Source of the DNA: Faunimonas pinastri
GTDB taxonomy: Bacteria > Pseudomonadota > Alphaproteobacteria > Rhizobiales > Afifellaceae
Direction: 5' to 3'
NCBI RefSeq assembly: GCF_900110915.1
Contig: NZ_FOFG01000005.1
Span: 1-64,000 of the forward strand
Length of the DNA: 64,000 nt
Positions 5,633-28,760 of the stretch are shown in pieces. Position numbers and translations under genes: made by a program. The notes beneath the pieces were generated by a model. The model searched no databases and was not told the DNA's origin. It saw nothing but the letters and a program-made list of their open reading frames with translations. The first letter of the stretch is position 1. Every line of letters begins with the position of its first letter.

Positions 5633-5633
5633 G

Positions 5634-7753: not shown

Positions 7754-7798
7754 GAGATCTGCAATCCTGATGTGAAAAATTCAGATCCTATTCCGCGC

Positions 7799-11324: not shown

Positions 11325-11371
11325 TGTCGGCCTCAAAAGGTTGGAAGCTTAGGTTCGGAGCGCCGCGCCGA

Positions 11372-11740: not shown

Positions 11741-11788
11741 CTATGGATTCCTTGTGTGGGTACGATGTCGGGGGATGCTGGCGGCCGA

Positions 11789-13336: not shown

Positions 13337-13366
13337 GGGTCTGGTCTCCGATGCGGACGGAAGGAT

Positions 13367-13681: not shown

Positions 13682-13692
13682 GGAAGTCCCGG

Positions 13693-14463: not shown

Positions 14464-14466
14464 GAG

Positions 14467-14856: not shown

Positions 14857-15185
14857 CAGAAGGACATGTTCAGGCGGACGCGACCGATGTCGGAGGGATT
14901 AGCGGCCACAAGGGCAGCCACGCCGATATAGGTGTTGCCCGAGGCGGTGGTGGTGGCGCCCTTGTTGGTGGCGTCCCAGTAGATCTTCGCGCCCTGCGTC
15001 CAGGCCTGGGCGCTGGACTTGGTCAGATCGTAGACGCCACCGATCTTGATCTCGACGTCGTCACCGGAGGCCGCATTGGAAGCGGCAATGCCGAACATGT
15101 TGCCGACGATCACGAGATCGCCGGACAGGACGTCGGCGGGGGCCGTGACGGTGAGAACCGCGCCCGGCTGGATGAAATTCTGCAT
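14856..15185 (-). CDS. DUF2190 family capsid-associated protein
   Basis: A 109-residue protein with the DUF2190 pattern: NFIQPGAVLTVTAPADVLSGDLVIVGNMFGIA at the start, then WTQGAKIYWDATNKGAT and YIGVAALVA. Members are small beta proteins encoded next to major capsid genes and probably act as head decoration proteins. Here it follows the protease-capsid fusion across an 81-bp gap that contains a terminator-like hairpin. Confidence 0.82.
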   Translation of the reverse strand: MQNFIQPGAVLTVTAPADVLSGDLVIVGNMFGIAASNAASGDDVEIKIGGVYDLTKSSAQAWTQGAKIYWDATNKGATTTASGNTYIGVAALVAANPSDIGRVRLNMSF

Positions 15186-15220
15186 GGAAGAAACCCTCTT
15201 GGATGGTCCGCAAAAGCAAA

Positions 15221-15239
15221 GGGCCGCTCACGGCGGCCC
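15221..15239 (-). terminator. Terminator-like hairpin after the capsid gene
   Basis: A perfect 7-bp GC stem (GGGCCGC / GCGGCCC) with a 5-base loop. On the minus strand it is followed by a T-rich stretch (TTTGCTTTTGC). It lies between the protease-capsid fusion and DUF2190. It may partially end or process transcripts so that capsid mRNA exceeds that of downstream tail genes; the effect is inferred. Confidence 0.5.
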
Positions 15240-15266
15240 CTTGCTGGTCAGGTCAGGCGGTTGCGA

Positions 15267-17333
15267 TCAGACGGGGTTCTTGTAGAGGCCACGCCAGTCG
15301 ATGACCTTGGCGCCGACGTCCTGGCGAACCTTCACCTCGATGCCGTCCACGTCGAAGCCCATTCGGGTTTCCGTGTAGAGGCCCTGCGCACCTTCCAGAT
15401 ACGCCAGCTCGATCACGTCGATCTGGCCGGGATCGCCGGCGAGATACCAATTCGTGCTGGAGGCGGCGTCGAGGCGCGGCTCGGAGATCGGCACCAGCTT
15501 CTTCATCGACGTGGTGACCACGTCGGCGGCCTTGGTCGGGAAGATCTGCCCGAGGAACTGCTCGGTCGTCGTCTCCAGCGCGGTCGGAACCAGCAGATAA
15601 GTCGGCGTGATGTTGAGGAGCGTCTTGCCGTCGAGCCCCTTCTGCACCCGCATCGACTGGCGCCCGGCACCGACGCTGTCGGCGGCGATCGCGGCGGCGG
15701 TGCCGAGATTGCCATGCTTGGCATGGAACAGCGTCAGGCCGTCTGCCATCACGGGATTGCCGGTGATCTGGCCCCAGACGAGATCGCTCTCAAGGTTTGC
15801 GGCCGCGACACCGAACGAGCGCGGGATGCGCGTGAAGGCGTCGAGATCGTCGTTGATCAGGACCTGACGGGTGATGCCGACGATCTTGCCGTAGGTCGAG
15901 ACGGCGTATTTCTCGGCCGCATCCCCCATGCTGCCGCGCTTGAACTCGCCGTGCTCGTTCACCTTCTCCAGCTGCGGGGCTTCGCCCAGCTGGACCCGGG
16001 AAACCTGCTTGAAGTCCGGCACCGTCACGACGCGCACCAGCGACCGGAACGTCTGCGGGGCGGCCTGGTAGCCGGCGCGCAGCGTCTTATTCGCGACATT
16101 GGCAAGGACGTTCGGGAAGTCGCCGGTCGACAGCATGCCACCGGAGCGCATGGCCATCATGGAGGTGTCGGAGCGCATGGACAGCATGGCGCCGGCGAGT
16201 TCGTTCTTGGACAGGCCGCGGGTCCGGACACCGGCCGCTTCCAGGCAGTCGCGGCCCATCTCGAGGATGGTCATGCCGCGGAAGGTCCGGCCGTGCTCGG
16301 TCAGCTCGTACTTCGTCGGGTCGAAGCGATGCAGGAGAGCGTTTTCGAGCGCTCCGCCGCGCTTTTCCTCTTCGGAGGCACCGGTAATCTGCGCGCGAGC
16401 GGACGGCCGGGTGTGGGTCTTCTCGGCTTCGTCAGCCATGTGGTCGAAGCCACGGGCGCGGAAGGCGTCCGCGGACGTGCCGTCCGCAATCGCCGTGCTG
16501 ATGATCTCCGGCGAAAGACCGGCGCGCTGGCCGATGGTCAGGATCGTCGCGCTACGCTCGCGCTCGGCGCGGATCTGGGCCTGCGCGTCAACCGGTGCGG
16601 GCTGAGGGGCCGCGGTGGTGCCGGGCTGCGGTGCAATGACCGTCGGGTTGCCGGCCACGGGCGCGGCGCGGTTTTCGGTCGTGAGGTCGGGCTGTGCGTC
16701 GACTTCGGGGGGCATGCGGTTCTCCAGTTGGGGGGCCGCCGGAGCGGCAGAAGGTGCGTCGGCCCGACTGACGACGCAGGGGAAAAGGTCGGGGTCTCCG
16801 GGGCGGGAGCCTGCGGAGCGCATCTGGGCGCCGGGGTCGGCGCCAACGGGCACCGCGGAGATCTCCAGCGGCTCCCAGTCGGTCACTCGCCAAACGGGGA
16901 CAGAGCCGTCATCGGCCTCCCGCTTCTCCACCTCGTGGATCAGGTAGCCGGCGGAGACGTTGCGGATGACGCCGTCGCGGATCTTGCCGACGGTATCGGC
17001 ATCGCTCGGCGCATTGGACAGCTTCACCGTCGCAATGCCGCGACCGTTCTCGATCTTTGCCGTGCCGGGCACGATGGAGCCGATGACGTCGCTCAGATCG
17101 TAGGAGCTGTGGGTGTTGAGGAACGGCGCACCGTTGTTCAGCCGCTCCAGCCGGACATTCTCGGGGGCAACGATCAGCTGCTCGTCGTAAAGCCCGTCGC
17201 GCCAGGAGTTCCGGCGCACCGTGGCGCCGGTCGTCCAGATGATCTCGATCGTGTTCGCTTCTTCGTCGAAGGTGGACGAGCGGACGACCGCCGTCCGCGT
17301 CTGCAGCGGAAGCTGAATGATTTCCGGAGGCAT
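15267..17333 (-). CDS. Prohead protease-major capsid protein fusion
   Basis: A 688-residue protein starting at ATG 17333 (MPPEIIQLPL), with GAGAG upstream. The first 170 or so residues look like an HK97/S78-type prohead protease, with candidate catalytic His75 (FLNTHSSYD) and Ser127 (NVSAGYLIHEVE). A Pro/Ala-rich linker follows, then a scaffold-like and coat region containing DFPNVLANVANKTLRAGYQAAP and a C-terminus typical of capsid proteins. Fused protease-capsid proteins are known in this class of phage. The protease would cut itself off during head maturation. Confidence 0.88.
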   Translation of the reverse strand: MPPEIIQLPLQTRTAVVRSSTFDEEANTIEIIWTTGATVRRNSWRDGLYDEQLIVAPENVRLERLNNGAPFLNTHSSYDLSDVIGSIVPGTAKIENGRGIATVKLSNAPSDADTVGKIRDGVIRNVSAGYLIHEVEKREADDGSVPVWRVTDWEPLEISAVPVGADPGAQMRSAGSRPGDPDLFPCVVSRADAPSAAPAAPQLENRMPPEVDAQPDLTTENRAAPVAGNPTVIAPQPGTTAAPQPAPVDAQAQIRAERERSATILTIGQRAGLSPEIISTAIADGTSADAFRARGFDHMADEAEKTHTRPSARAQITGASEEEKRGGALENALLHRFDPTKYELTEHGRTFRGMTILEMGRDCLEAAGVRTRGLSKNELAGAMLSMRSDTSMMAMRSGGMLSTGDFPNVLANVANKTLRAGYQAAPQTFRSLVRVVTVPDFKQVSRVQLGEAPQLEKVNEHGEFKRGSMGDAAEKYAVSTYGKIVGITRQVLINDDLDAFTRIPRSFGVAAANLESDLVWGQITGNPVMADGLTLFHAKHGNLGTAAAIAADSVGAGRQSMRVQKGLDGKTLLNITPTYLLVPTALETTTEQFLGQIFPTKAADVVTTSMKKLVPISEPRLDAASSTNWYLAGDPGQIDVIELAYLEGAQGLYTETRMGFDVDGIEVKVRQDVGAKVIDWRGLYKNPV

Positions 17334-17343
17334 GGATGGTCTC

Positions 17344-18834
17344 TCAGTTGGCCGCGTCGGCAGCCGGTTTCTCGTTCGCGGCATCGGCCTGGGCGACGCC
17401 AAGCTGCGAGGTGCGACGCGGATCGATATCGAGGACGAGATTTTCCGCGTCGATGATCTTCAGGAACGCGGACGTGTCCTTGATCACCTTGCGCCAGTCC
17501 TCGCCCCATGCGGAGATGAAGGTCTGCGGCGTCATGCGTCCGGCGCGAACGGCCAGAATGTCGGCTTCCAGATCCTTGCGGGGATCGATCGGCTCGACCG
17601 CCGGCATGACGTAATCGAAGCGCCAGCCATCCCGGCGAGGCTTGATAACGTCGGCCAAGATGGCGGCATCGACGAACCAGTTCGTCACCCGCCGCATCAT
17701 CTGCGGCACCAGGACGTTGTATTGCGTCTGCTCGGTCAGCCGGCGCTGCTCGATCTTGCCGGCCCGGAGGCTGGAATAGTTCGCCTGGCGCAGGTCGCCG
17801 GTCAGCTGGTCGTAGGTGATGCCCGCGCCGGCGGCCATGCCGAACAGGGTGGAAAGCCAGACCTGCTCATATTGGCCCGAGCTGGTTGGCTGGGCGAAGC
17901 TGATCTTCTCCCCTTCCTGCAGGTACGCGATCATGCCCGGCCGCATCTCCTCGATGCGCGCGTCGTCGCGGCTCGGACTGAGCGGGCTGGTTCGCTCGCC
18001 CTCCAGGGTGACGAAGCCGGTATAACAGGCCTCGGTCTTGGCCTTCATGATGACGGCGTCGACCAGATCGCCCAGATCGCGGCTCGGCATCAGGATCGGA
18101 GCAAAGACGGGGACGCCCCTCACCTGCCCGGCTCGCAATGGCCTGAAGAGGTGAATGACGTCCTCGACCGGAACGAAGGTCGAATTGAATGGCGCGCCGC
18201 GGAACGTGTATTCGCCGGGGTGCTGGCTGTGCAGCCACAGGCCCGTGCGCGCATCCCAGGTGCCGAGACCAACGCCCAGGCGGCTATATTGGTTGTCGAA
18301 GGTCCCAAGATCACGGCTTTCGTCGATCAGATCCCCTTCCAGAACCTGCAGCGCGAGCTTGACGCGGCGGCGATCGCCGCTGCGGAGCGGAATGCGCCGC
18401 ATCACCGCGTCGCCGCCTTCCAGCGCGCTGGAATAAAGCAGCGCCTGCTGTCCCGCGAAGTTGTTGATCCCCTCCACGTCCGAGGTGTCGCACCACTCCA
18501 GCCACGCGTCCCCCAGCTGGCGATCGGTGCGATCCGAGCCGGTGGCCGGGACGGCATTGATGCCGGTGCCGATCGTGTGGCCGACATGGACGTCGAGGAT
18601 GCGGCGACCGGCCCAAGTGTTGCGGGCAAGATCACGCGACCGATCGCGCAGTCGGGCAAGCGCCGGGCCGATCTCCACGTTGGCGGACGTGGCGGCGGCG
18701 GTGAAGGAATCTCCCCGCCGGCCAACGCGCGCGCCGTCATAGGCCCGCTTCTGATCGAGGGCGCTGAAGGCCCGCGCGCGCTTCATCGCGGCGCCCGGGG
18801 CGATCCAGGCGAGCGCCTGTAATGCTCGGGACAT
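17344..18834 (-). CDS. Phage portal protein (lambda gpB family)
   Basis: A 496-residue protein with lambda-type portal features: RSRDLARNTWAGRRILDVHVGHTIGTGI near the N-terminus, GGDAVMRRIPL, DVIHLFRPLRAGQVRGVPVFAPILM, and AGAGITYDQLTGDLRQANYSSLRAG. The portal is the dodecameric ring at one head vertex through which DNA enters and leaves. It lies 3 bp after gpW and 10 bp before the capsid fusion, the lambda-like order A-W-B-C/E. Confidence 0.93.
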   Translation of the reverse strand: MSRALQALAWIAPGAAMKRARAFSALDQKRAYDGARVGRRGDSFTAAATSANVEIGPALARLRDRSRDLARNTWAGRRILDVHVGHTIGTGINAVPATGSDRTDRQLGDAWLEWCDTSDVEGINNFAGQQALLYSSALEGGDAVMRRIPLRSGDRRRVKLALQVLEGDLIDESRDLGTFDNQYSRLGVGLGTWDARTGLWLHSQHPGEYTFRGAPFNSTFVPVEDVIHLFRPLRAGQVRGVPVFAPILMPSRDLGDLVDAVIMKAKTEACYTGFVTLEGERTSPLSPSRDDARIEEMRPGMIAYLQEGEKISFAQPTSSGQYEQVWLSTLFGMAAGAGITYDQLTGDLRQANYSSLRAGKIEQRRLTEQTQYNVLVPQMMRRVTNWFVDAAILADVIKPRRDGWRFDYVMPAVEPIDPRKDLEADILAVRAGRMTPQTFISAWGEDWRKVIKDTSAFLKIIDAENLVLDIDPRRTSQLGVAQADAANEKPAADAAN

Positions 18835-18837
18835 GGA

Positions 18838-19041
18838 TCAGTCCCTGCGGAAAGAAGCGAGAGTGACGCGCGGCGCCGTAACCGTGCCGCCAAGCGCCGC
18901 CGCGATGTCCCGGCGCACCGAGCGCATCTCAGCCAGCGAGCGGTAGAACACCTCGCGATTGTCAGCGAAGCGCACGCGCGAGGCGCCCGTGGCGATCGCC
19001 GCGTCGATGGCAGCGAGGTCAGCTTGCGTCCAGGTGGTCAT
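18838..19041 (-). CDS. Head-tail joining protein gpW
   Basis: A 67-residue protein with the gpW pattern: TQADLAAIDAAIATGASRVRFADNREVFYRSLAEM. Length is normal for the family (about 68 residues). gpW attaches beneath the portal after packaging and lets the tail join. The start overlaps the terminase stop by one base (TGATG), and the gene lies between terminase and portal exactly as in lambda. Confidence 0.9.
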   Translation of the reverse strand: MTTWTQADLAAIDAAIATGASRVRFADNREVFYRSLAEMRSVRRDIAAALGGTVTAPRVTLASFRRD

Positions 19042-20963
19042 CAGCGATCCAGCCAGCCTTTTGTTCGATCGCCGAACCAGCCCTGGGAGGCCGGCCGCGA
19101 TGCTGTTTCCTTGGGTTCCGGCTGGCGCACCGGCACGTCTTCCACAGGTTCAGGAGCCCGCTCCCGGTCCGCTTCGAGGCGGTCCCACACCGCATCCGGC
19201 ATGCCGCGAAGGCCGAGCTTGATGGCCGCCGCCTCCGCCTGCAGGTGCGTGTCCAAGCCTTCGTTCGCCTGGTTTGGATCCTTCTCCCAGCGATAGACCG
19301 TGAAGCCGTGACGCTTCACAGGCTGCCGGCGCTCGGCCGTCAGCTGCCGGAAATATTCGTCCTCAAGACCACGCGCGAAGCCGATGAAGCCGCGCTCCTG
19401 CGGATCCACCTTCATGAGGTTGCGATAGAGCGCCATCTTCAGGACCGAGGTCCCGAAGTTGTGGAACCGCCGGGAGTACGCAAGCAGCTTGCCGGCCGCG
19501 TTGCGCTCCTTGGCGACCCGCGCCAGCAGCGGCGCCGATTCCGATGGCACGCCGCGAACCATGATCACGCGCGACGACGGATGCTGCTGGGCCCAGGACC
19601 AAACGTCCTCGGTCCAGGCATTGCCGTCGATCGCGGCCAGATCGATGCCGATCCGCCGGCCGAGCGTGTTCGGCCAGGTCTGCTCCATCAGGTCGTTGAG
19701 GCGCGCCTGGGTGGCGGGCTCGCTGATGTGGCCGGGAATGATCCGGTAATCGATGACGAAACGCCGCCCGTCTCGGCCGAAGCCGACCAGCTGCGTTTCG
19801 ACGCGATCAAGCTGGCAGTCCAAACCGAGCGTCAACAGCAGCGCCCCTAGGGGAATAGTGCCGATCGCGTAATCCGATTCCGCAGCGCGGTCGCGCAACC
19901 CTTCCCAGGGCGGCGCCTCGCTCTGGGCCCGGAAAGCTTTCCCCACGGTATCGTTCAGGAAAGTCTGCTCGGCGGCCGGGTCACCGCGCGCCTTCAGCCA
20001 TTCCAGGGCGATCTGCCGCCACGACTGCAGGAGCGAATAGGCCGACCACAAATAGAAGGAGCGGTGGAACCGCTTCATCTTCGGGTTGTCGGCCCGCCAC
20101 TCCCCCCGCGGCAGCATTGCGGAGCGATGATGCTCCTCGATCTCGCAGCCGCAGGCGACGCAGGTGAAGTGCGCGGCTTCCGGCCGGTCCTCATCGAAGT
20201 CGGCCAGCAGGTTTTCCCATTCAAGGGACTGCATCGTGTCGCAGTGCGGACACGGCACATAAAGCCGTTCCTGGCTGCCGGCGTCATAGCTCTTCGTGAT
20301 CCGGCAACCGGGCATGACCAGCGGCGTGGAGATCTTGAAGATCTTGGCGAAGGTGATGGCGCGGGAGCGGCTGTCGGCCTGGCTCTCGGGATCGCCACCG
20401 GAATTGTTCTCCCACTTCGACAGATCGTCCTGCACCTGACGGGGCATGGTGACCTGCGAAAGCGATGCCGGCGAATTGGCGCCGGAGATCAGGATGGCGC
20501 CGAGGCCGTCCGCACGTTCCTTGTAGAGGGTGCTGTCACCTCCGTCCCGGCTCTTCTCCGGAAAGATCGCCTTCAGCGCGGACGTATTCCGCAGCATTGG
20601 CCGAAGCTTCATCTTCGACCAACGCTCGGCGTTGTTCTCCGTCGGATGGACGTACATCAGGTCGCCCGGGTCCATCTCCATGGAGCCGCAGGTGAAGATG
20701 TTCGCCAGCACCGTGCCGCCGAGCTGGGCGGACTTGGCGAGGGTGACGATCCGGCAGGGATCCTCAGGGCTGAGCGCCTTCAGGATCTCGGTGAAATACG
20801 CGAACCGGTCGGGGTTGTAGGGTCCCGGCTCCGGCGATTCACGCTTGGTGAAGCTGATGTTCTTCACCGCCCAGGCGAGATAATCGACGGGCGGCGGTGG
20901 CATGAGCGCGGCCGCGACCGCCTCGTGCCGGAGGCGATCCGGGTTCGCCAGCATAGCGACCAT
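19041..20963 (-). CDS. Terminase large subunit, GpA family
   Basis: A 640-residue ATPase/nuclease that packages DNA into the prohead. It has the GpA signature WAVKNISFTKRESPEPGPYNPDRFAYF, a Walker A-like site RIVTLAKSAQLGGTVLANI, paired zinc-binding cysteines (CPHCDTMQSLEWENL, then CVACGCEIEEHHR), and a C-terminal nuclease region with LGLDCQLDRVETQLVGFGRDG and IGIDLAAIDGNAWTEDVW. Length matches lambda gpA (641). It follows the Nu1-like small subunit by 3 bp. Confidence 0.93.
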   Translation of the reverse strand: MVAMLANPDRLRHEAVAAALMPPPPVDYLAWAVKNISFTKRESPEPGPYNPDRFAYFTEILKALSPEDPCRIVTLAKSAQLGGTVLANIFTCGSMEMDPGDLMYVHPTENNAERWSKMKLRPMLRNTSALKAIFPEKSRDGGDSTLYKERADGLGAILISGANSPASLSQVTMPRQVQDDLSKWENNSGGDPESQADSRSRAITFAKIFKISTPLVMPGCRITKSYDAGSQERLYVPCPHCDTMQSLEWENLLADFDEDRPEAAHFTCVACGCEIEEHHRSAMLPRGEWRADNPKMKRFHRSFYLWSAYSLLQSWRQIALEWLKARGDPAAEQTFLNDTVGKAFRAQSEAPPWEGLRDRAAESDYAIGTIPLGALLLTLGLDCQLDRVETQLVGFGRDGRRFVIDYRIIPGHISEPATQARLNDLMEQTWPNTLGRRIGIDLAAIDGNAWTEDVWSWAQQHPSSRVIMVRGVPSESAPLLARVAKERNAAGKLLAYSRRFHNFGTSVLKMALYRNLMKVDPQERGFIGFARGLEDEYFRQLTAERRQPVKRHGFTVYRWEKDPNQANEGLDTHLQAEAAAIKLGLRGMPDAVWDRLEADRERAPEPVEDVPVRQPEPKETASRPASQGWFGDRTKGWLDR

Positions 20964-20966
20964 GGA

Positions 20967-21662
20967 TCATGTCTCTGTTGTCGCGACCTCCTGGGCGGCC
21001 ACGAACTCCGGCAGCGCTTCGGCCGCCAGCTTGTTGCTCTCCGCCACTTGCTGGCGGACCTTGCGGAAGAGCTCGTTGAGCTTCTGCAGGACCTCGCGGT
21101 CCTCCGCCCTGAAGTCTGCGGCGAGCGCCGTCGCCATTTCCGGGAGCGCACCCTCAAAGGCGCGCATCACCTGGACGGCGATGGTGGTCAGCTGCCGGCG
21201 CACGGCAGCGGTCTCGGTATAGAGCCCCTTGCGGGCTGCCTCATCTTCCTCGCCGATGCGGTTGCGCCGCTGCCACTCGGCCAACTTCTCGCGCTTGAGG
21301 AGCTCGTCCAGCTGGTCGCTGGCGATCTCGTCCTCATCATCGTCGGCATCCGCGCGTGGGTTCGGCTCTCGTCGCGAGGTTGTCGGCTCAGCCGGTGCGC
21401 CCGGGCTCTGACCCGTGAGCCTGGTCGTGATGCCGTTGCCGAGCGCCTGGCTGATGTCGCGGCGCTTGCGCAGCTGCTTCTGCGCGGCAGCAACATTGAT
21501 GCGGGCGGTCCGGCCGGCGCCGATCAGGGCATCGCCGTCGATCAGCTTCTCGGCGATCCACTGCGTCACCCGGCCCGGCGAGACGCCGCAAATCCGGGCG
21601 AATTCGCTCTTCGATACGATGGCTGCGGAAGTGGCTGGTGCGCTGGCGCCGGGCTTGGACAT
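20967..21662 (-). CDS. Terminase small subunit, Nu1-like DNA-binding protein
   Basis: A 231-residue protein. The N-terminal 70 residues form a winged helix-turn-helix (VSKSEFARICGVSPGRVTQWIAEKLIDGDALIG...RINVAAAQKQL) like lambda Nu1, which binds the packaging site. An acidic linker (DADDDEDEIASDQL) leads to a helical C-terminal region. The iterons and GC palindrome at 21707-21891 lie just upstream and are the natural binding-site candidates. ATG 21662 is the only plausible start. Confidence 0.85.
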   Translation of the reverse strand: MSKPGASAPATSAAIVSKSEFARICGVSPGRVTQWIAEKLIDGDALIGAGRTARINVAAAQKQLRKRRDISQALGNGITTRLTGQSPGAPAEPTTSRREPNPRADADDDEDEIASDQLDELLKREKLAEWQRRNRIGEEDEAARKGLYTETAAVRRQLTTIAVQVMRAFEGALPEMATALAADFRAEDREVLQKLNELFRKVRQQVAESNKLAAEALPEFVAAQEVATTET

Positions 21663-21706
21663 GGATGGTTTTCCGGGCGCTGCAGCCGCTTTCTCTTTCT
21701 AGGAGC

Positions 21707-21825
21707 CTTTTTAGCCCCTCTTTTTAGCTCGCTTTTTAGCCCGGCCGGCCTGCAAGCGGTGCCGGAATGGCGGAACTCCGCCGATCCAGCCTGCCCGCGG
21801 GCCGACTTTTTAGCCGCTTTTTAGG
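21707..21825. repeat. Five CTTTTTAG(C/G) iterons beside the terminase gene
   Basis: Five copies of CTTTTTAG followed by C or G lie at 21707-21715, 21720-21728, 21732-21740, 21806-21814 and 21817-21825, all in the same orientation. Two sets are spaced by 11-13 bp, close to one DNA helix turn, and separated by about 66 bp. They lie in the 274-bp gap directly upstream of the Nu1-like gene. In lambda the small terminase subunit binds repeated R sites at the same position (cosB). A promoter-operator function is the alternative. Confidence 0.6.
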
Positions 21826-21875
21826 CTTTCAAAACCGGGTCAGACTGGCGAAAATCCGGGGGTTTTACGCCCGCA

Positions 21876-21891
21876 GGGGGGCCGGCCCCCG
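21876..21891. other. GC palindrome, candidate cosN-like site
   Basis: A run of G, then GCCGGC, then a run of C forms a strong GC-only palindrome at about 21876-21891. It lies 51 bp from the last iteron, in the gap between the gpZ-like and Nu1-like genes. Lambda-type cosN sites are GC-rich imperfect palindromes beside the terminase-binding repeats, so this is a possible nicking site. The role is inferred from position and composition. Confidence 0.35.
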
Positions 21892-21899
21892 GGAGGGAC

Positions 21900-21917
21900 C
21901 CGCGCCCTCCGGCGCGG
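21900..21917 (-). terminator. Hairpin after the gpZ-like gene
   Basis: A perfect 7-bp stem (CCGCGCC / GGCGCGG) with a CTCC/GGAG loop, 20 bp after the gpZ-like stop on the minus strand. No T-run follows, so it may be a pause or RNA-stabilising hairpin rather than a true intrinsic terminator, or part of the packaging site. Confidence 0.3.
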
Positions 21918-21936
21918 TCGGCGGCGGCGCCGCGCG

Positions 21937-22533
21937 TCAGCGCCCGCCCTCGAGCAGGCGGCCGACCTCGTGGACCAGGCGATCGGTGAGGTCGCTCTCG
22001 ACGACCTCGAAGAACGCCGCCTCGCTCTCCCCCGTGATCATCTCTTCGGGGATGAAGAGGCCCGACCGCTGCTCGGCGATCGGTATGCGCTTCCTGCCCA
22101 GGCGCTTGTAGACGTGGCCGCCGAGCTTCAACCTCGTCCGGTTCGGCCACCGGCCGCCGGTCATGAAGGCATGGTCGTCGTGCCAGGACTTCCCGCGAAC
22201 CTTGGCGGTCACCCCGCCCGGCCCTTCCTTCGCCCCGAAGAACTTCAGGGAGATGTCCCCGCCTCGCGAGCGGATGACGTAGGCCGAGCGCGCACCGTTG
22301 CCCTTGGGGCCACCGGTCGATGCCCGGTCAACCTTGAGGGCCCGCACGATCACCTTGCGTTTCAGCCCGGTCTGGGCGGTCAGGGTCCTGACCATCCGGG
22401 TGCGCGCCTTGTCGCCGGTGTGGTTGACCGCGCGAACGATGGCCTTACCGGCGTTCTTGCCGGCGGCGCCCAGCAGATTGGCCATGCGGGCCAGCTGGGC
22501 GTCGTCGAGCTTTACCTCGAGCAGTCCGGACAT
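21937..22533 (-). CDS. Minor tail protein Z-like (gpZ family)
   Basis: A 198-residue basic protein with the gpZ-type pattern AGKAIVRAVNHTGDKARTRMVRTLTAQTGLKRKVIVRALKV, then GGDISLKFFGAKEG and GVTAKVRGKSW, ending in an acidic helix (TDRLVHEVGRLLEGGR). Lambda gpZ lies in the tail module, near the tail terminator. Here the gene lies on the other side of the terminase gene, at the early end of the structural operon, which is unusual. A role in head-tail joining is the family expectation. Confidence 0.75.
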   Translation of the reverse strand: MSGLLEVKLDDAQLARMANLLGAAGKNAGKAIVRAVNHTGDKARTRMVRTLTAQTGLKRKVIVRALKVDRASTGGPKGNGARSAYVIRSRGGDISLKFFGAKEGPGGVTAKVRGKSWHDDHAFMTGGRWPNRTRLKLGGHVYKRLGRKRIPIAEQRSGLFIPEEMITGESEAAFFEVVESDLTDRLVHEVGRLLEGGR

Positions 22534-22564
22534 CGGCGATTACTCCGGCTGCCGGTCGGCAGGG

Positions 22565-22870
22565 TCAGAAGCTGGTGGACGTTTCGATCAGGGAAGCATC
22601 CACCGGCGAAATGGTGTCGGCATCGGTGATCGGCGTCTCGCCCGATGCACCGCTGACCGTGTCGGTGGTCGAGGCGGCCGGCGTGACGGCATAGGTCATC
22701 GAAACCAGCGAGACGTGACCGTCGACGTTGTTGTCGGCCCAGCTCTGCGCCTCTTCCATGCTGGAAAAGTGGCCGGTGCGCTCCGGCGCGGTGCCGTTCT
22801 TCACGGTGAGCGAGACGCCGGCGAGATCGCCGGGGATCAGGATCAGGGTCTGGGCAGCAATCTTCGGCAT
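22565..22870 (-). CDS. Unknown small phage protein
   Basis: A 101-residue protein starting at ATG 22870 (MPKIAAQTLILIPGDLAGVSLTVKNG), with GAGG seven bases upstream. The next ATG upstream in frame lacks a binding site. The middle has ERTGHFSSMEEAQSWADNN and the C-terminus is Thr/Ser/Ala-rich. No family is recognised. It lies 31 bp before the gpZ-like gene and is likely to be cotranscribed with it. Confidence 0.55.
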   Translation of the reverse strand: MPKIAAQTLILIPGDLAGVSLTVKNGTAPERTGHFSSMEEAQSWADNNVDGHVSLVSMTYAVTPAASTTDTVSGASGETPITDADTISPVDASLIETSTSF

Positions 22871-22906
22871 GTGAAACCTCATTCGGTTGGGGAGAGGAGA
22901 GGCCGG

Positions 22907-23101
22907 TCAGTCGGTCAGGCGAGCGATCGACTGCTCGACGGCATCGACTTCGGCGCGGAATCGCAGTTCGTCCTGCTGCGCGTCGCGAGCCGCGGAAACA
23001 TGATGCTGCCGCTTGCGCATCGCGCTTTCGGCGCGGCGTTGCGCGACCTCGCGGGCATCGTAAAGCGCCCGCAGCCGGGCGGGATCGTTCTCGTAGGGCA
23101 T
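22907..23101 (-). CDS. Unknown small coiled-coil phage protein
   Basis: A 64-residue, highly charged, probably all-helical protein (MPYENDPARLRALYDAREVAQRRAESAMRKR). Its heptad-like pattern suggests a coiled coil. No family is recognised. It lies among several short same-strand genes between the early region and the gpZ-like gene. Confidence 0.5.
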   Translation of the reverse strand: MPYENDPARLRALYDAREVAQRRAESAMRKRQHHVSAARDAQQDELRFRAEVDAVEQSIARLTD

Positions 23102-23124
23102 GGCGGTAAGCCTTCGAAGCGGGA

Positions 23125-23334
23125 TTAAACCGTTGCGAGGGGACCGCTCTCGCTGCCCAGCCGCGGCCCGTAGACCTTGGCGGCAGCCCCACGGACCTCT
23201 TTAAGGTCACGCAACGGCTTGCGGATCGCGAGCAGATCCACGGTTGGCTGATGGAGGAGCGTCCGCACCGGTCGTTCCGCCTCGACCACCTGGCGGAGGA
23301 TCACCGGCAGGCGCTGCAGCTGGGCGTCCGTCAT
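23125..23334 (-). CDS. Unknown small phage protein
   Basis: A 69-residue protein (MTDAQLQRLPVILRQVVEAERPVRTLLHQ) with a helical start and a basic C-terminal part. No family is recognised. It begins 4 bases inside the end of the upstream 74-residue gene (23331-23555), an ATGA-type overlap that supports both being real. Confidence 0.5.
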   Translation of the reverse strand: MTDAQLQRLPVILRQVVEAERPVRTLLHQPTVDLLAIRKPLRDLKEVRGAAAKVYGPRLGSESGPLATV

Positions 23335-23555
23335 GCGTAAAACACGCGGCGAACCGGCACTTCTTTGACCATCGGCCGCTTACGCCGCCGGTGGTGGTGA
23401 TACGCCACTTCGCGCGGGCCAGCTCGGCCCGTTGCCTTCGCCTGGTGGAGCGGTCGGGTCACCGGAGCGAGTTCCGTCTGGACACCAAGGGTGACATCCA
23501 TGCCGATCACGTAAAGACCGGCGGCAGCTGCCGCCCCGAGATTGAGAAAGCGCAT
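23331..23555 (-). CDS. Unknown small protein with hydrophobic N-terminus
   Basis: A 74-residue protein starting MRFLNLGAAAAAGLYVIGMDVTLG, which could be a signal peptide or single membrane segment. It is followed by a very basic region (YHHHRRRKRP). No family is recognised. It overlaps the next gene by 4 bp. The combination of a membrane anchor and basic tail could suit a membrane-associated early phage protein, but this is only a guess. Confidence 0.5.
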   Translation of the reverse strand: MRFLNLGAAAAAGLYVIGMDVTLGVQTELAPVTRPLHQAKATGRAGPREVAYHHHRRRKRPMVKEVPVRRVFYA

Positions 23556-23705
23556 CCGAACCTCGTCATGCTTTGCGAAAGGGCACTGGTGAGGAAGGCG
23601 CTCACGCCTCCTGGGTGGTTATGCTGCACCCCACCCCGGCCTTGGGTCCTAGCCCACAGCGTCAGGCCGACACGCGCCGCGGCAATGCCGGGCGGCTTAC
23701 GTGCG

Positions 23706-23751
23706 TCTCACCAGATCGGTTTGGTGAGAGACAACGGCCGTTGCCTCTCAC
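23706..23751. promoter_or_regulatory. Near-perfect 28-bp palindrome with a competing hairpin
   Basis: A dyad at 23724-23751 has two 14-base arms (GTGAGAGACAACGG and its partner) with one mismatch and no spacer. A second inverted repeat, TCTCACCA (23706-23713) with TGGTGAGA (23722-23729), overlaps its left arm, so the two RNA hairpins are mutually exclusive. The motif GTGAGA occurs three times. It lies in the 202-bp gap between small phage genes, just beyond the stop of the 87-residue gene. It could be an operator, terminator or attenuator. Confidence 0.5.
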
Positions 23752-23757
23752 GGATGT

Positions 23758-24021
23758 TTATCGAAGGCGCTCCAGCAGCTCTTCAAGCTTGAAGACGATC
23801 TCGCCACGATCGACGTGAAAGCGCTCGGGATCGCGGCGCGACACCGTCAGCCGTTTCACCTCGCCGGCGATCTTCTCCAGGTCCTCGCGGATGGCGCGGA
23901 CGGTGGGCGGCTTCACCGCCGGCCCGTTTGCGACATAGACCGCCTGCCCAGTCGACCGACGCTCGACACGAACGTCGCAGCCGTTCGCGGCACGGATCGT
24001 GGAGCGGGAGGGGCGAAGCAA
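23758..24021 (-). CDS. Unknown small phage protein, TTG start
   Basis: An 87-residue protein (LRPSRSTIRAANGCDVRVERR at the start, then a helical, charged C-terminus AIREDLEKIAGEVKRLTV...EIVFKLEELLERLR). TTG at 24021 is chosen because GAAGAG lies about eight bases upstream; the reading frame stays open further upstream but there looks like shadow sequence. No family is recognised. It lies between the methyltransferase cassette and the other small phage genes. Confidence 0.5.
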   Translation of the reverse strand: MLRPSRSTIRAANGCDVRVERRSTGQAVYVANGPAVKPPTVRAIREDLEKIAGEVKRLTVSRRDPERFHVDRGEIVFKLEELLERLR

Positions 24022-24365
24022 GGGCGATCTCTTCTGAAAAGCCAACGAGGCCGGCGCGGCGTTTTGCCGGCCGGCCCTCGTCTGTGGCGCAGCCGAAGCT
24101 GCCGAGCCTGCGCTCGAAGTGAAGCCCCAGCAGGTTGCGGGTGGCGGGCTACTGTGTGGCGCAGGAACACGAAAAGCCGGCACCGCGAGAGCGGCCCGGC
24201 AGATGACGCGGTTACGTGATCGGGATCCAGGTGGTGAGGGCAGCCATGATGCCAACCCTGAGGGCACCCCAGAAACGGAAACGCCCGGCGGCTGGAAGCC
24301 CCGGGCGCATCACTCGAACGGTGAATTTCTCGCAGGTTCTACGCGGCGGGTCAAGCCCAACTCGT
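24022..24365. other. 344-bp gap before the methyltransferase cassette
   Basis: No convincing gene. It holds a terminator-like hairpin (24282-24307). A 32-codon frame on the minus strand (24310-24212) overlaps that hairpin and was not accepted. Base composition changes here from the GC-rich phage genes to the AT-richer cassette on the right. Confidence 0.5.
24282..24307 (-). terminator. Terminator-like hairpin after the methyltransferase gene
   Basis: The 7-base arms CGCCCGG and CCGGGCG are extended by GGCT/AGCC across a one-base bulge, around a 3-base loop. On the minus strand the stem is followed by TTTCCGTTTC. It lies about 60 bp after the methyltransferase stop and would isolate the cassette from downstream phage genes. 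Confidence 0.5.
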
Positions 24366-25451
24366 TCACTTCACTGCTTCAAAGACAAAGTCGAACTCAC
24401 GACGGGTTCCTTCTGCGTTCGGTCTGAATGACCGCAATTGGCCATTCCGAATGTCAGATGTTGAGCTTGAAAGACAGTTCACAAAAGGGAAGGCACGTTC
24501 CAAACCTGCCTGGAGGCCGAGTTGCGCCGCCTCGAGAGATAGCTTCTTTCCGCCGATCCGAATTACTATTCGAGCACGTCGCTTCAGAAGAGGTGCAATT
24601 CCCAGCCATGTCTCAGTTAAGAAGTTCCAGTAATTATCTGGATTCGAATGCCTGTCGTCACCTTCTGTCGCGCTACAGGGAAACGGGTCTCCCCCAAGAA
24701 ACCAGACGCGAAGCCATTGATCCTCGCGAAAATGTGTCACATCCAAGTAAGGAGGAGAGGTGAGAACAACATCGACCTTCCCCTCCCAATCCGAAAGGAG
24801 TTCACTCGACAGCCGGGAGTCGCCTTCCACGACGTGTCCAGTTCGGATTGGAGGTGCACTTACATACCGGAAATCCGCTTCTTCTCTTAAGATTGAGAAA
24901 ACATCTCGCTCTGGAGGCAATAAGCCGTGCTGTCTCCACCAGCGAACAGAATAGGAGGGCTTCGTGGAAATCGTCCTCGGCATCCTGTTACTAAATACGC
25001 GACGGCTCCGGTGGCTCTCACCGTGCAGACACCCTGCAGCCATTGCTGCGAGGAAGCAATCTACAGCGTTGTTTCTCCAATCCAACTCCCGTCTGATAAA
25101 CAGAATCTGTTGAAGGGTGGTTTCGGAAAAGCACATCCGAAAGAATTCATCCGACAACAACGGATCAACTGTTGTGACGAAGGACCTCTCCAGGTCATCA
25201 AGCCGCGCGCGGATTGCGCCGATTGACGGTGCTTTGCTCTTAGCGCGAGACACACATACCGCGAGAGGATTCACATCCACCCCCAGCGCCTCATGCCCCA
25301 TCTGCAACGCCTCAAACACGGTTGTTCCACGGCCGCTGAAACAATCCAGAACCACTGAGTTTTCCTCAGCCAATGAGAGGTGCTTTCGAACAAAAGCTTC
25401 AGGGAACATCGCAAAATACGGACAGATCGAGTGGAATCTATGCCGGCTCAT
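24366..25451 (-). CDS. DNA methyltransferase with SPPY motif (N4-cytosine or N6-adenine type)
   Basis: A 361-residue protein from ATG 25451 (MSRHRFHSICPYFAMFPEAF); a GTG at 25487 would add 12 residues and deepen the overlap with the preceding gene. SAM-binding motif I is DCFSGRGTTVFEALQMG at about residues 36-52, followed by GVDVNPLAV. Catalytic motif IV is TSPPYLDV at about 231. The gap of nearly 190 residues between them holds the probable target-recognition region. SPPY motifs occur mostly in N4-cytosine enzymes. It is last in the ParB-like cassette and overlaps the preceding gene by 14 bp. Visibly AT-richer than the phage structural genes. Confidence 0.85.
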   Translation of the reverse strand: MSRHRFHSICPYFAMFPEAFVRKHLSLAEENSVVLDCFSGRGTTVFEALQMGHEALGVDVNPLAVCVSRAKSKAPSIGAIRARLDDLERSFVTTVDPLLSDEFFRMCFSETTLQQILFIRRELDWRNNAVDCFLAAMAAGCLHGESHRSRRVFSNRMPRTISTKPSYSVRWWRQHGLLPPERDVFSILREEADFRYVSAPPIRTGHVVEGDSRLSSELLSDWEGKVDVVLTSPPYLDVTHFREDQWLRVWFLGGDPFPCSATEGDDRHSNPDNYWNFLTETWLGIAPLLKRRARIVIRIGGKKLSLEAAQLGLQAGLERAFPFVNCLSSSTSDIRNGQLRSFRPNAEGTRREFDFVFEAVK

Positions 25452-26424
25452 AGGAGTACACTTCGGCTGGGGACCGCCGGAAGGCACGAAGCCACCGCCA
25501 GATCAACGAGGCAGCGGCCGCGCAATCGACAGCCGTGCCAGCGTGGTTCAATTGAAGCCCTTGCCATGCCAATAACGGCGTACGCGTGCGATCAAGAATC
25601 GCTCCATGTTTGAAATGATTACGTCTCATCTCATCTTCGCTCAGCCGATACGGAACTATAGTGTAATAAACAGTATTGCAATTCGGTTTGTCTAGAAAGT
25701 AATTCCGCATTAATAATTCGCTGTCTATTCGAGCTGACTTCTGCGGCCAATCATGTCCGCTGGCAGTTTGACCGAACGCGAAGAATGCAGGTGGCGGGCC
25801 ATCCAGAAACGGGTTCCAAGCCAAGACATCTATTCCGCTGTCTTTGTCGTACTCTCCAGCACCTGGCCCGGGCACGTCTCGACCTGAGCCCGTTCCGGCC
25901 AGCTGACAGGTTCGACGTACGACCTCGAGGATTGATTCGTCTGTGGGTCGCGGCCACCCGAGCCAAACAGCTGGCCCTTGAACTTGCCCCGCTAAAGCCA
26001 GCGTGGCGACACATTGAAAATGGTGGTTCCGCGCAGCCCTTACGGCACTTGGATGTGGGGCCGTTTCAAGTATCCGAGACCGGGTGACATGTGAGAGGAC
26101 GAGGCAAAACAGGTAGAAGCGCCCGCCCCGGCGATCATTCCTGTCCTTCAGTCCAAGCACTTCTCCAGACGCCGACAGGCAGAAAGGGTAAGTATTCCCC
26201 AGTGCTTTCTCACGGGCACCGATCTCTTGCTCGATCTCCAAACGTAGATCTTCCACCTGGAGGTCGCGCTCACCAATGTCATCCTCGATCTCGTCAGCCT
26301 GTATATCTAACGCCCCGATCAACTCGTCCAGTTTAGACTGATGATAGATATCGAAAAAGGCATTCAGCTCCAGCCAGTCGACTTTTTCGAAAACCGTGGC
26401 ATTCACCGCTGGCGCTTTCAACAT
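25438..26424 (-). CDS. Unknown protein with degenerate PD-(D/E)XK-like motif, in ParB-methyltransferase cassette
   Basis: A 328-residue protein with no family I can name. Residues 31-75 form an acidic coiled coil (LDELIGALDIQADEIEDDIGERD). The segment GEYDKDSGIDVLAW (190-203) followed by PAFFAFGQTASGHDW (212-226) resembles the core strands of PD-(D/E)XK nucleases: Asp199 would be the metal ligand, while Gln219 stands where Glu or Lys normally appears. Other conserved-looking features are LLAWQGLQL near 284. It starts directly after the ParB-like stop (TGA-ATG) and overlaps the methyltransferase by 14 bp, so the three are coupled. A restriction or sensing role is inferred. Confidence 0.6.
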   Translation of the reverse strand: MLKAPAVNATVFEKVDWLELNAFFDIYHQSKLDELIGALDIQADEIEDDIGERDLQVEDLRLEIEQEIGAREKALGNTYPFCLSASGEVLGLKDRNDRRGGRFYLFCLVLSHVTRSRILETAPHPSAVRAARNHHFQCVATLALAGQVQGPAVWLGWPRPTDESILEVVRRTCQLAGTGSGRDVPGPGAGEYDKDSGIDVLAWNPFLDGPPPAFFAFGQTASGHDWPQKSARIDSELLMRNYFLDKPNCNTVYYTIVPYRLSEDEMRRNHFKHGAILDRTRTPLLAWQGLQLNHAGTAVDCAAAASLIWRWLRAFRRSPAEVYSYEPA

Positions 26425-27606
26425 TCAACGAGAATCCTCGGCAGGGCTGGCCGGCCTCTGCAGCTCGGGATGATGGTCCGCGGCTTCCATCTCCATTGAT
26501 CGATGGATTGTTCGCGCTTTTGACAGGATCTGCTGGGCGATCGTGAGTAGCGTTCGATCCTTACCATCGTACCCGTCCAAGGATGCCTGAACATCCCGCA
26601 GGTGCTCATTCGCCTTCACAAGGTGCTCCTCTAGCCGCGAGCTAGCCGGGATTGTGCTGACTTCCGCTGCATCCAGGTCGCTGCTCTCAAGCATGATCCG
26701 AGTTGAGACCGGATCGGATAGCACTCGCTTGAGTCGAGCGATGTCGGGATTCTGACGCCGGATCGCTGGCTCTATCGCTTCCGACTTCTGACCGTACAAC
26801 CACCGGAGCAACTGGCGCAGGTTATCGAGATTGGATTCCGGTATCGGATTCCGAGCAGGGTCTGCGCTTCGATCCCAAGTCGTATACCCAAGGAACTCCC
26901 GATATTCAGGATAAGTCAGAGCGGTATATAAATGGGAGAAGCTAAAATTCTTTGTGGCTCGGTCTACGACGAAGAAAACGCCATTTTCCTCCGCCTGATC
27001 TAAAACGTAGATGGCGCTGACCAAGCGGTAGATCGTATCGTTCTTGTCTCCCATGCTTCTGGCGATTTCGCTAAGGGAGAGACCCTGCCTGCCTTCTTCG
27101 CGTTTCCGGCGCTCGTCATCAAGCCATCGTGCAGCGTAGATTCCCTTCGCATGTGCATCCCAAGCTTGAGGACCATTGATGTGCTTGAAGCCAATCAAGG
27201 TGCGGGCTTCGTCTTGGGACACAACTCGATAGACGGAGACACTCTTCAGAGTTGCGCGTATTGGCTCCGAGAGAGGTGGGATCGACAGTTTCGCGCGCTT
27301 TGCAAGGTCGGCGCTACGCAACGCCTTCAGCGCAGCTAGCCGTCTATTCCCTTCCAGAACGACTAGATCGTCACCTTCGCCGATAACGATCAAAGGTTCG
27401 ATGTCGATATAACCGCTAGTGGAGATCGACTCGATCAGCTCGGCCAAATCGGCGGACGCGGCCAGCTCAGCGATGAAAGCAGCATCGCTGTCACTCGACG
27501 GCTTCTTCTCAGGGGTGAAGCGAGGGTTGTGTCGATCAAAGGTCAGGCTGTCGACAGGAACCTCGACGCGCTCCCGTGCTGCGACTTCCTGCTCCCACCA
27601 AGGCAT
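26425..27606 (-). CDS. ParB/Srx-domain protein
   Basis: A 393-residue protein from ATG 27606, with GAAGAG about eight bases upstream; the TTG just before it is unlikely. The N-terminal domain is ParB/sulfiredoxin-like: VEVPVDSLTFDRHNPRF (14-30), SGYIDIEPLIVI, then the phosphate-binding motif VLEGNRRLAALKAL (83-96). A helix-turn-helix follows near 172-200 (LSLSEIARSMGDKNDTIYRLVSAI). ParB-like domains bind CTP or ATP and can clamp, cut or modify DNA. No ParA partner is nearby, so partitioning is unlikely. First gene of a three-gene cassette with its own candidate promoter. Confidence 0.8.
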   Translation of the reverse strand: MPWWEQEVAARERVEVPVDSLTFDRHNPRFTPEKKPSSDSDAAFIAELAASADLAELIESISTSGYIDIEPLIVIGEGDDLVVLEGNRRLAALKALRSADLAKRAKLSIPPLSEPIRATLKSVSVYRVVSQDEARTLIGFKHINGPQAWDAHAKGIYAARWLDDERRKREEGRQGLSLSEIARSMGDKNDTIYRLVSAIYVLDQAEENGVFFVVDRATKNFSFSHLYTALTYPEYREFLGYTTWDRSADPARNPIPESNLDNLRQLLRWLYGQKSEAIEPAIRRQNPDIARLKRVLSDPVSTRIMLESSDLDAAEVSTIPASSRLEEHLVKANEHLRDVQASLDGYDGKDRTLLTIAQQILSKARTIHRSMEMEAADHHPELQRPASPAEDSR

Positions 27607-27633
27607 CAATATTCTCTTCGGCTGCTATGCTCA

Positions 27634-27661
27634 TGCTTACACGGCAGAAAGCTACCGGCAA
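27634..27661 (-). promoter_or_regulatory. Candidate promoter of the ParB-like cassette
   Basis: On the minus strand TTGCCG (27661-27656) and TAAGCA (27639-27634) are separated by 16 bp and end 28 bases before the ParB-like ATG. The match to a sigma-70 promoter is weak. If real, it would let the cassette be expressed from the lysogen independently of phage genes. Confidence 0.28.
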
Positions 27662-27679
27662 AGCGTCAACAAGGGGTTC

Positions 27680-28339
27680 TCAATGAGATCTTCCGGGGCG
27701 CGTTCTTGGCTCGGCCCGTCCCGCCCAAGCTTCTGAGATCTCCTCAAGCATCCAGCGGAAGCGGTCTCCAGCATAGGCGGCTCCTCGATCCCGCCCCTTT
27801 CCGCGTGCTGCCCCTTCGCTCGCGAAGCTTGCCTCACCCATGATCAGGCGGCGAAGGAACTTTGCCCCTACCTCGCCCACCACCTTCTCGATCCGCTTCA
27901 CGTAGTCGTCGGCCAACCGAGCCTTCGCCAGCGTCCGGATTAACCGGATCTCGTCTTCCGTTGCAGCGTCCACCTTCTCACCACCGGCCCAGCCGCCCCC
28001 CATGCGAACGCCTGCCGCCTGTTCGAATACCGCCTGGATGATGCGCCCCACCATGTAGGCAGCTTCGGAGATCCGGCCGTGCGACCGCTCGAGCTCGAGC
28101 AGGTCGACGTTTCGGTTCACCCGGGCGAGGATGCGCTCTTTCGGGTTTTCGGGATCCGGCACCGCGATTTGCGCTGTGGGCAGGTTCGGTGACAGCGGCC
28201 GCCGCGCAACGCCGCCGATCGGTGGCACGGCATCGGCCGTGTCATAGCGGCTGGTGCGCACCGGCCGCTCCGTTAAAGCGGTCGAGCGAACGCCCACCGC
28301 CGGATAAATCGCTGCTTTCCGTTTGCGTCCTGCGCTCAT
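27680..28339 (-). CDS. Unknown phage protein
   Basis: A 219-residue protein starting at ATG 28339 (MSAGRKRKAAIYPAVGVRSTALTERPV), chosen because an upstream in-frame ATG would overlap the preceding gene. The N-terminal 70 residues are basic and probably disordered; the middle is helical (ERSHGRISEAAYMVGRIIQAVFEQAAG, EIRLIRTLAKARLADDYVKRI). No family is recognised. It follows the DUF6362-like gene by 16 bp. A DNA-associated early function is possible but not shown. Confidence 0.6.
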   Translation of the reverse strand: MSAGRKRKAAIYPAVGVRSTALTERPVRTSRYDTADAVPPIGGVARRPLSPNLPTAQIAVPDPENPKERILARVNRNVDLLELERSHGRISEAAYMVGRIIQAVFEQAAGVRMGGGWAGGEKVDAATEDEIRLIRTLAKARLADDYVKRIEKVVGEVGAKFLRRLIMGEASFASEGAARGKGRDRGAAYAGDRFRWMLEEISEAWAGRAEPRTRPGRSH

Positions 28340-28355
28340 GTTCGCACCCGTTCCC

Positions 28356-28760
28356 TCAGGCCGGGATGGGTCGGAGGCAATTGGGCTCAGACGCAAGAGA
28401 TTTCTTCGAGAGCGCCTCGACGCGCTGTAGGCTCAGATATTCGGCCACCTGGCGAGCCGCCTCGTTACGATCTCGCTTGAAACTTGCGTACGCCCACCCG
28501 CGCTGCCGGCAGGTTTCGCGCACCGAGATCCCGACCGCCCGAGCGCGGGCCCATGTCAGGATCTTCACCCGCAGTGTGGACGACCGGCCGAGCGCGCGGC
28601 TTGTCGCCTCGATCAGCGCCAGGCCCGCGATCGGCGTGTCATCGAGGGCAATGAAGCTGTTTCGCGTCGGGCTGTAGATTGGCGTGTCAGGCAGTCGGCG
28701 GAAGGAGTCGACCAGCCGCTCCGACACAAGCTCCGGCGTCCAGTCGTGTTCAGTGAGCAT
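28356..28760 (-). CDS. DUF6362-like phage protein with helix-turn-helix
   Basis: A 134-residue protein. The start WTPELVSERLVDSFRRLPDTPI and a later LTWARARAVGISVRETCRQRGWAYASFKRDRNEAARQVAEYL, which looks like a helix-turn-helix, resemble the DUF6362 family of alphaproteobacterial phages. Such proteins probably act as regulators near the terminase region. It is the rightmost phage gene, about 310 bp from the candidate attachment site. Confidence 0.6.
   Translation of the reverse strand: MLTEHDWTPELVSERLVDSFRRLPDTPIYSPTRNSFIALDDTPIAGLALIEATSRALGRSSTLRVKILTWARARAVGISVRETCRQRGWAYASFKRDRNEAARQVAEYLSLQRVEALSKKSLASEPNCLRPIPA

Follow-up and report, generated by a model that had tools for sequence, protein, structure and literature searches.

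Three adjacent genes at the right edge of a prophage in Faunimonas pinastri, designated A, B and C, encode a ParB-fold protein, a predicted nuclease and a DNA methyltransferase, and probably form a three-gene anti-phage system of the restriction-modification type that travels as prophage cargo. They are located in a stretch of 64,000 nucleotides (contig NZ_FOFG01000005.1, positions 1 to 64,000; C29:1-64000), referred to as the window. The three genes and their junction are arranged as follows.

26425..27606, minus strand: gene A, 393-aa ParB/Srx-fold protein with a DNA-binding helical region, predicted nucleoside triphosphate (NTP)-binding DNA sensor
25438..26424, minus strand: gene B, 328-aa predicted PD-(D/E)XK nuclease (D199, Q219, K229)
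24366..25451, minus strand: gene C, 361-aa amino-DNA methyltransferase (SPPY, N6_N4_Mtase; N4-cytosine or N6-adenine)
25438..25451, minus strand: overlap of B and C, 14 bp, from the coordinates of the open reading frames (ORFs)

A first-pass annotation, made from the nucleotide letters, had described three minus-strand genes joined by a TGA-ATG contact and a 14-bp overlap. All three ORFs are located as described, A and B meet in TGAATG, and the overlap, through which B and C could be translationally coupled, is present. It had further proposed a self-contained defence or modification system, with DNA marked by the methyltransferase and sensed or cut by the other proteins. This proposal is supported by the co-occurrence of the genes, the structure models and a conserved site in B, from which we infer the defensive role.

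To identify related loci, A was used as query, because the alignment of B contains no conserved stretch suitable for patterns; a pattern search of genome_contigs with B alone yielded no relatives. Searches by tblastn with B retrieved few relatives (four plasmids, and two genomes among 384 others from the class) and none among phages. With an A alignment from six loci that have B, 659 relatives were recovered, 532 of them from genome_contigs and 127 from viral_contigs. From each collection the 80 top-ranking ones were retained, 160 in all; with the window and seven earlier loci they make up the sample of 168 sequences, whose loci carry L numbers below. A profile of B, seeded from six sequences, matched in 159 of the 168 sequences, and A was found in 166. 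Both genes are adjacent on the same strand in 156 of 168 (135 groups of near-identical A). Without three second copies of places already counted, 153 pairs remain, near-copies included. The sequence identities of A and B are correlated between loci (r = 0.94, 11,628 locus pairs). In a metagenome-assembled genome (MAG) of Brevundimonas, A and B form a single ORF of 707 codons (L010:7956-10079); this may be a natural fusion or a sequence error. B occurs without a full A at two loci: in L004, A is lost beside a transposase-like gene, and in L123 it is in two pieces. By sequence, A and B thus form a conserved unit, referred to as AB. Whether the trio recurs elsewhere had been set beforehand as a check, and its components were found together in many lineages and phages.

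A second survey covered 398 genomes across the phylum, including that of F. pinastri, and used an A profile with a threshold of 1e-10. The genomes were drawn without regard to the ranking of hits, but since this profile was built from AB-type loci, the survey still depends on how the family is defined. It yielded 19 matches. The five strongest (<1e-80, window included) all show adjacent A and B followed by a methyltransferase, which is of the D12 class in two loci, SPPY in two and C5 in one.

Gene C matches Pfam PF01555 (N6_N4_Mtase) with an E-value of 1.9e-14 and, judged by sequence and model, is an amino-methyltransferase. Clustering of the genes neighbouring AB revealed three large methyltransferase families: MethyltransfD12 (N6-adenine), DNA_methylase (C5-cytosine) and the SPPY class of the window, the Pfam assignment coming from one member each for D12 and C5. 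The count was restricted to the 132 loci in which each flank extends for at least 1.2 kb. A methyltransferase is located within 1 kb of AB in 124 of these (51 D12, 39 C5 and 34 SPPY) or, by groups of near-identical A, in 109 of 117 (45, 30 and 34, respectively). The nuclease module is therefore stably linked to a DNA methyltransferase. The characteristic motifs are preserved in members of at least 250 aa, near-copies included: DPPY in 72/72, PCQ in 43/44 and SPPY or SPPF in 40/40. Orientation differs between classes. Over all loci counted, 39 of 39 SPPY genes lie on the strand of B (34 behind B and 5 overlapping it as called), and 39 of 41 C5 genes and 43 of 59 D12 genes are convergent to B.

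A tree of 105 A proteins, of which 95 carry a class label, requires at least seven changes of class; it was built by a quick method and contains several long branches and 26 weak inner branches out of 102. The compared loci show METHYLTRANSFERASE swapping, as read from their sequences: the AB pair stays, while the methyltransferase beside it is of the D12, C5 or SPPY class. In L046 (10032-12306), a remnant of the SPPY class lies between B and a convergent D12 gene at 1.2 kb, likely the scar of such a replacement. The trio of the window also seems to have arisen by a swap, although the tree places it in no well-supported set: its nearest relatives in A (54%) and B (46%) are both from L008, which carries a D12 gene, whereas for gene C the closest sequences are SPPY genes from other lineages (L028, 56%).

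Eight of the 132 loci are exceptions to the 1-kb rule: L046, L033, L042, L007, L023, L039, L035 and L059. In L033 (7962-12669) and L042 (7977-12524), AB stands directly before PD-lambda-5 A-type and D12 genes on the same strand, so that PD-lambda-5_A separates B from the D12 gene; the PD-lambda-5 genes are complete in L042, and in L033 the A match falls into two stretches. Such a four-gene compound may represent two systems sharing one methyltransferase. In L007, cytosine methyltransferase genes lie some 6 kb upstream, accompanied by DUF262, Z1 and PD-(D/E)XK motif genes. A Neorhizobium plasmid (NZ_CP147997.1; L194:9449-19468) has AB downstream of two cytosine methyltransferase genes and DUF262, Z1 and PD-(D/E)XK motif genes, and AB adjoins another multi-gene modification system there. 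A further methyltransferase-like family occurs near A in L057, L058, L060, L065 and L073 (ORFs of 145 to 950 aa), four of which also contain an SPPY-class gene; the 920-aa ORF of L065 is an N6_N4_Mtase and resembles type III Mod.

Gene B has no match in Pfam, NCBIfam or PADLOC; in PHROGs it corresponds to 14650/3984, with the function left blank. Its structure model is confident (predicted local distance difference test, pLDDT, 93.8), and its structural neighbours are mostly restriction-endonuclease-like, with Z scores of 4 to 6.2, below the level that the tool calls safe. Those listed include BsmI, FokI, N.BspD6I, SdaI, MspJI, Card1/Can2/Cdn1, NucC and HamA, all of which we take to be PD-(D/E)XK enzymes. 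MspJI is the top Foldseek match (E 3.4e-3). Searching Protein Data Bank (PDB) sequences with B, or with a profile of it, produced no useful match. The active-site pattern reads KDxGID199 ... Q219xA[S/T]Gx[N/D]WxxK229. D199 is present in 118 of 118 aligned sequences and Q219 in 117 of 118, and all three residues are kept in 146 of the 153 B proteins. The seven deviating proteins comprise four with a lysine at the canonical QxK position, L121 without Q219, and the truncated or gapped L011 and L082. With respect to the lysine, the 153 pairs divide into 146 with K229 and without K221, four with K221 (classical QxK) and without K229, one with both and two with neither. Every B open to judgement keeps a lysine at one of these two positions. 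The subgroup with the classical QCK (L003, L115, L116, L120 and L137, four of five without K229) shares QCKTG; its members may be related and do not represent five independent events. We read the difference, from the alignment, as a probable migration of the catalytic lysine, which is known in the PD-(D/E)XK superfamily.

B contains the conserved D ... (D/E/Q) ... K site of this superfamily and is predicted to be a PD-(D/E)XK nuclease. The first-pass annotation had noted that Asp199...Gln219 resembles a degenerate PD-(D/E)XK core. The conserved D...Q...K residues and the confident model support this, and the fold matches, mostly endonuclease-like, remain weak. A non-nuclease phage fold, named in advance as the outcome that would speak against a system, was not seen among these mostly restriction-endonuclease-like, weak neighbours. 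SPPY, Asp199, Gln219 and the GNRRLAALKAL of A, all of which it had listed, are present in the translations.

Gene A has no Pfam family above the cut-off. It corresponds to PHROGs 3694, likewise without function, and its N-terminus matches PD-Lambda-5_A models of PADLOC and one PDC-M38A model. The best Foldseek matches of its model (pLDDT 95.3) are CTP- or CDP-bound ParB structures (probability 1.00), and the model aligns with KorB through the DNA-binding region (Z 9.6, root-mean-square deviation 5.3, 201 residues). All 153 aligned A proteins contain NPR and EGNRR, the latter aligning with GERR of ParB. In other ParB-fold proteins, nucleotide binding was lost when the P-motif arginine was mutated (PMC12704722, in part). 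Having both this fold and the P-motif arginines, A is, by sequence and model, a protein of the ParB/Srx NTP-binding fold whose nucleotide-pocket motifs are intact and whose DNA-binding region resembles that of ParB; its predicted role is that of an NTP-binding DNA sensor. Weaker relatives of A in the draw of 398 genomes have partners other than B. The N-terminal module is thus common to several systems, with B accompanying the full-length A family.

Judged by sequence, the nearest named system is PD-lambda-5, which is prophage-borne and has a ParB-like N-terminal domain homologous to A (PMC9519451, in part). It differs in having two genes and no B, and its A profiles, mostly of 430-610 positions, have another C-terminal region. 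Accordingly, PD-Lambda-5_A of PADLOC matches A of the window with E 2.3e-19 from residues 15-143 to profile positions 5-132 of 454 and not over its full length, whereas the true member in L042 matches from 9-464 to 1-461 of 463. The D12 genes of the AB loci L105, L033 and L042 match PD-Lambda-5_B nearly end to end. Gene C of the window is an N6_N4_Mtase and not a MethyltransfD12, and PD-Lambda-5_B is absent from the 25 listed out of 51 PADLOC matches. Two presumed fusions were considered and rejected. PD-lambda-5_A is not an A-B fusion, as four homologues read by eye and six more loci without a match to the B profile indicate. PDC-M38A is neither an A-methyltransferase nor an A-B fusion: L168 encodes an AAA/AbiLi-like ATPase that matches the C-terminal half of the model, and a 720-aa example matches AAA_21. 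A second A-like ORF of 438-478 aa is present in L012, L062, L068 and L086; that of L068, the one scanned, is PD-Lambda-5_A.

GmrSD, SspE and DndI also combine a ParB-fold nucleotide-binding domain with a nuclease that responds to DNA modification (PMC11662687, PMC12373910 and PMC10952713, each in part). These effectors contain DUF262 with DGQQR together with an HNH nuclease, whereas A and B carry EGNRR and a separate PD-(D/E)XK-like nuclease, and A-B additionally has a ParB-like DNA-binding region and a dedicated methyltransferase of changing class. Neither DUF262 nor HNH (DUF1524) was matched by A or B in Pfam up to E 1. Type II restriction-modification systems likewise place a nuclease and a methyltransferase side by side, but here a ParB-fold protein is a third component, AB is constant while the methyltransferase class changes, and a shared target is only presumed. 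With canonical ParB, KorB and Noc, A shares its fold, GNRR being aligned with GERR; in contrast, its partner is a predicted nuclease, and a partition role is not indicated. We call the AB-methyltransferase combination restriction-modification with a ParB-fold switch.

The literature searched yielded no recognised description of the A-B-methyltransferase trio; the supplements of Rousset et al. and Vassallo et al. and bioRxiv lay outside this search and may list it. The first-pass annotation knew of no named system with this exact composition, and none was recognised in this search for the trio as a whole. Three points had escaped it: part of the trio has a named relative in PD-lambda-5, the methyltransferase is exchangeable among three classes, and the trio is already present in coliphage Wphi (AY135739). 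There, gp98 is A by tblastn, gp96 is B by its motif (D...QCG...K), and mth encodes a C5-cytosine methyltransferase; gp98 and gp96 belong to the families represented by PHROGs 3694 and 14650/3984. In E. coli the cassette occurs in prophages: among 5,426 complete genomes, 20 have the D12 type and 103 at least 80% of the Wphi trio.

AB is located between the P2-type portal and replication gene A families in 38 of the 80 viral loci (28 of 62 groups). The two families are named after the annotation of an E. coli locus identical to L105 and after the known genes of P2. By their record titles, the 80 genome_contigs loci, many of them metagenome-assembled, span 13 phyla, and in every phylum one locus or more has a methyltransferase within 1 kb. 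AB with a methyltransferase also occurs on two large plasmid records (L005 and L006). The place between the P2 portal and replication gene A families is the cos-proximal hotspot, described as holding anti-phage systems (Rousset et al., PMC9122126, in part).

In the mechanism that we propose for the trio, C would methylate its target in host and prophage DNA, and A would scan or load on DNA in a nucleotide-dependent manner and license B to cut DNA without the mark. Methylation would block the loading of A or cause its release, as phosphorothioation does for DndI. This ParB-fold ATPase-nuclease, which is released from self-DNA by phosphorothioate marks, is the closest worked precedent (PMC11662687, in part). 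Since adenine-N6, cytosine-C5 and SPPY-type enzymes interchange beside AB, AB would be blocked by a methyl group at the site, and we infer that AB is excluded by such a group rather than being a dedicated reader of one modified base. A more specific version, which would amount to a new type of restriction based on a ParB-style nucleotide switch and in which A is loaded as a nucleotide-gated clamp on unmethylated sites, slides or spreads and delivers B, so that any site-blocking methyltransferase would serve irrespective of its chemistry, is offered tentatively and is more doubtful than the general scheme.

Alternatively, AB could be modification-dependent, i.e. type IV-like or SspE-like and triggered by modified DNA, with the methyltransferase used otherwise or setting a threshold. 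MspJI, the top Foldseek match of B, is a modification-dependent enzyme, and a distant relative of A is paired with Mrr without a recognised methyltransferase. GmrSD, SspE and DndI provide precedents for ParB-fold and nuclease effectors responding to modified DNA (PMC11662687, PMC12373910 and PMC10952713, each in part). However, a motif-bearing methyltransferase of one of three classes stands beside AB in the 124 of 132 loci, cutting of methylated DNA would lead to self-cutting, and one reader family would need to recognise several modified bases; we consider this explanation unlikely. A further possibility is abortive infection, in which methylation, or the methyltransferase itself, would keep AB inactive and AB would kill the infected cell once a phage interferes with the modification. 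PD-lambda-5 has a different C-terminal region, and no B accompanies six A matches of the PD-lambda-5 style, which argues weakly against this explanation; we hold it to be rather improbable.

The trio could also serve the phage itself, the methyltransferase protecting phage DNA from restriction by the host and A-B helping to maintain or regulate the prophage. Partition is one role of ParB-fold proteins, and a ParB fold-methyltransferase fusion is enriched in prophage regions and has been suggested to be perhaps anti-defence (PMC12704722, in part). On the other hand, the trio is found on contigs titled to 13 phyla, counted irrespective of whether they lie in prophages, and on large plasmids; moreover, B keeps its nuclease residues, and the P2-like carriers place AB in a hotspot for defence cargo. 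A phage-serving role is accordingly very unlikely. A chance neighbourhood of unrelated cargo genes, for which nothing was found, is contradicted by the recurrent trio and can practically be discarded.

Several observations weigh against a restriction-modification system made up of A, B and a methyltransferase. Loci were picked by similarity to A from AB loci and limited to the best 160 of the 659 relatives, so that A without B may be under-sampled. Nine loci of the sample have A without a full-length B. In three of them, a piece of B is present at a contig end (L041, L056 and L084), and in three others the contig ends within 17 bp of A (L026, L113 and L150). L073 and L075 lack B despite 2.6 and 8 kb of flanking sequence, respectively, and L047 has a piece of B only, not at a contig end. 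In the draw of 398 genomes, 14 of the 19 A matches are without B. Six of these are directly followed by a D12 gene in the style of PD-lambda-5, one (G620) has a Pfam Mrr_cat nuclease next to it, and seven show neither B nor any of the three methyltransferases in the stretch examined. One of these seven was scanned and consists of an A-like N-terminus fused to an AAA ATPase (L206, 720 aa, AAA_21). The PDC-M38A model PDLC04607 is alike; these may represent the same sensor with another effector. Next to the pair of A-like ParB protein and Mrr_cat nuclease (L215:3182-5135), no methyltransferase was recognised in 8.5 kb. Such a pair fits type IV logic, and L215 is possibly a type IV relative. The structural matches of B are weak, with no Foldseek E-value below 1e-3 and a best Z of 6.2. 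Finally, the D12 gene of L023 is broken, the SPPY gene of L039 (7947-10353) has a large internal deletion beside an intact-looking AB, and no convincing methyltransferase was found in 2 of the 132 loci (L035 and L059, the latter with a 30% fragment only). A free restriction nuclease should be harmful without a working methyltransferase, unless another enzyme protects the DNA.

ParB-fold switches have been described in DNA segregation and in nucleases that sense modification. In the trio, such a switch stands together with a predicted nuclease encoded by its own gene and with a methyltransferase of any of three classes. If AB restricts, it would represent a widespread restriction family for which no name was found. 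The class swaps allow one to ask how a restriction module recognises self when the class of the marking enzyme changes, and the presence of the trio in Wphi makes this question accessible in laboratory E. coli.

Two further features of the window concern the setting of the trio.

24281..24308, minus strand: hairpin 3' of gene C, possible weak terminator (fold of 24262-24345, z -1.3)
1..28760, no strand: prophage region, equal to a 28,760-bp IMG/VR viral contig; extent inferred from the position of A in L088

Genes A and C start with ATG, and alternative starts are a TTG at 27609 and a GTG at 25487, respectively. A candidate promoter had been placed before A; the promoter scan lists none there, and promoter-like sequences are at shuffle level (2 found, shuffle mean 1.6). 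The proposed terminator-like hairpin is present, but it is absent from the list of the terminator scan, which is itself at shuffle level (5 found, mean 4.2), and the fold of its 84-nt stretch is near that level, 1.3 standard deviations better than its own shuffles.

Among ten window proteins scanned with PHROGs, a subset of the ORFs, no ParA was found. Upstream of A, 27680-28760 contains two short phage-edge ORFs without a PHROGs match at E 0.001. The prophage encodes tape measure, sheath, head protease, portal, terminase and baseplate proteins on the minus strand and belongs to a contractile-tail phage. The A gene of the IMG/VR viral contig (L088) is 100% identical. The genome contig, too, starts at base 1 of the window, so the prophage is probably cut there. 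A and B each have one match in the F. pinastri genome. The G+C counts given earlier for three sampled lines (25, 29 and 39 of 60) are exact on recount. The G+C content of the trio is 54.4%, compared to 66.4% for the window; a 3.2-kb frame moved along the 64 kb gave no lower value at any of 304 positions.

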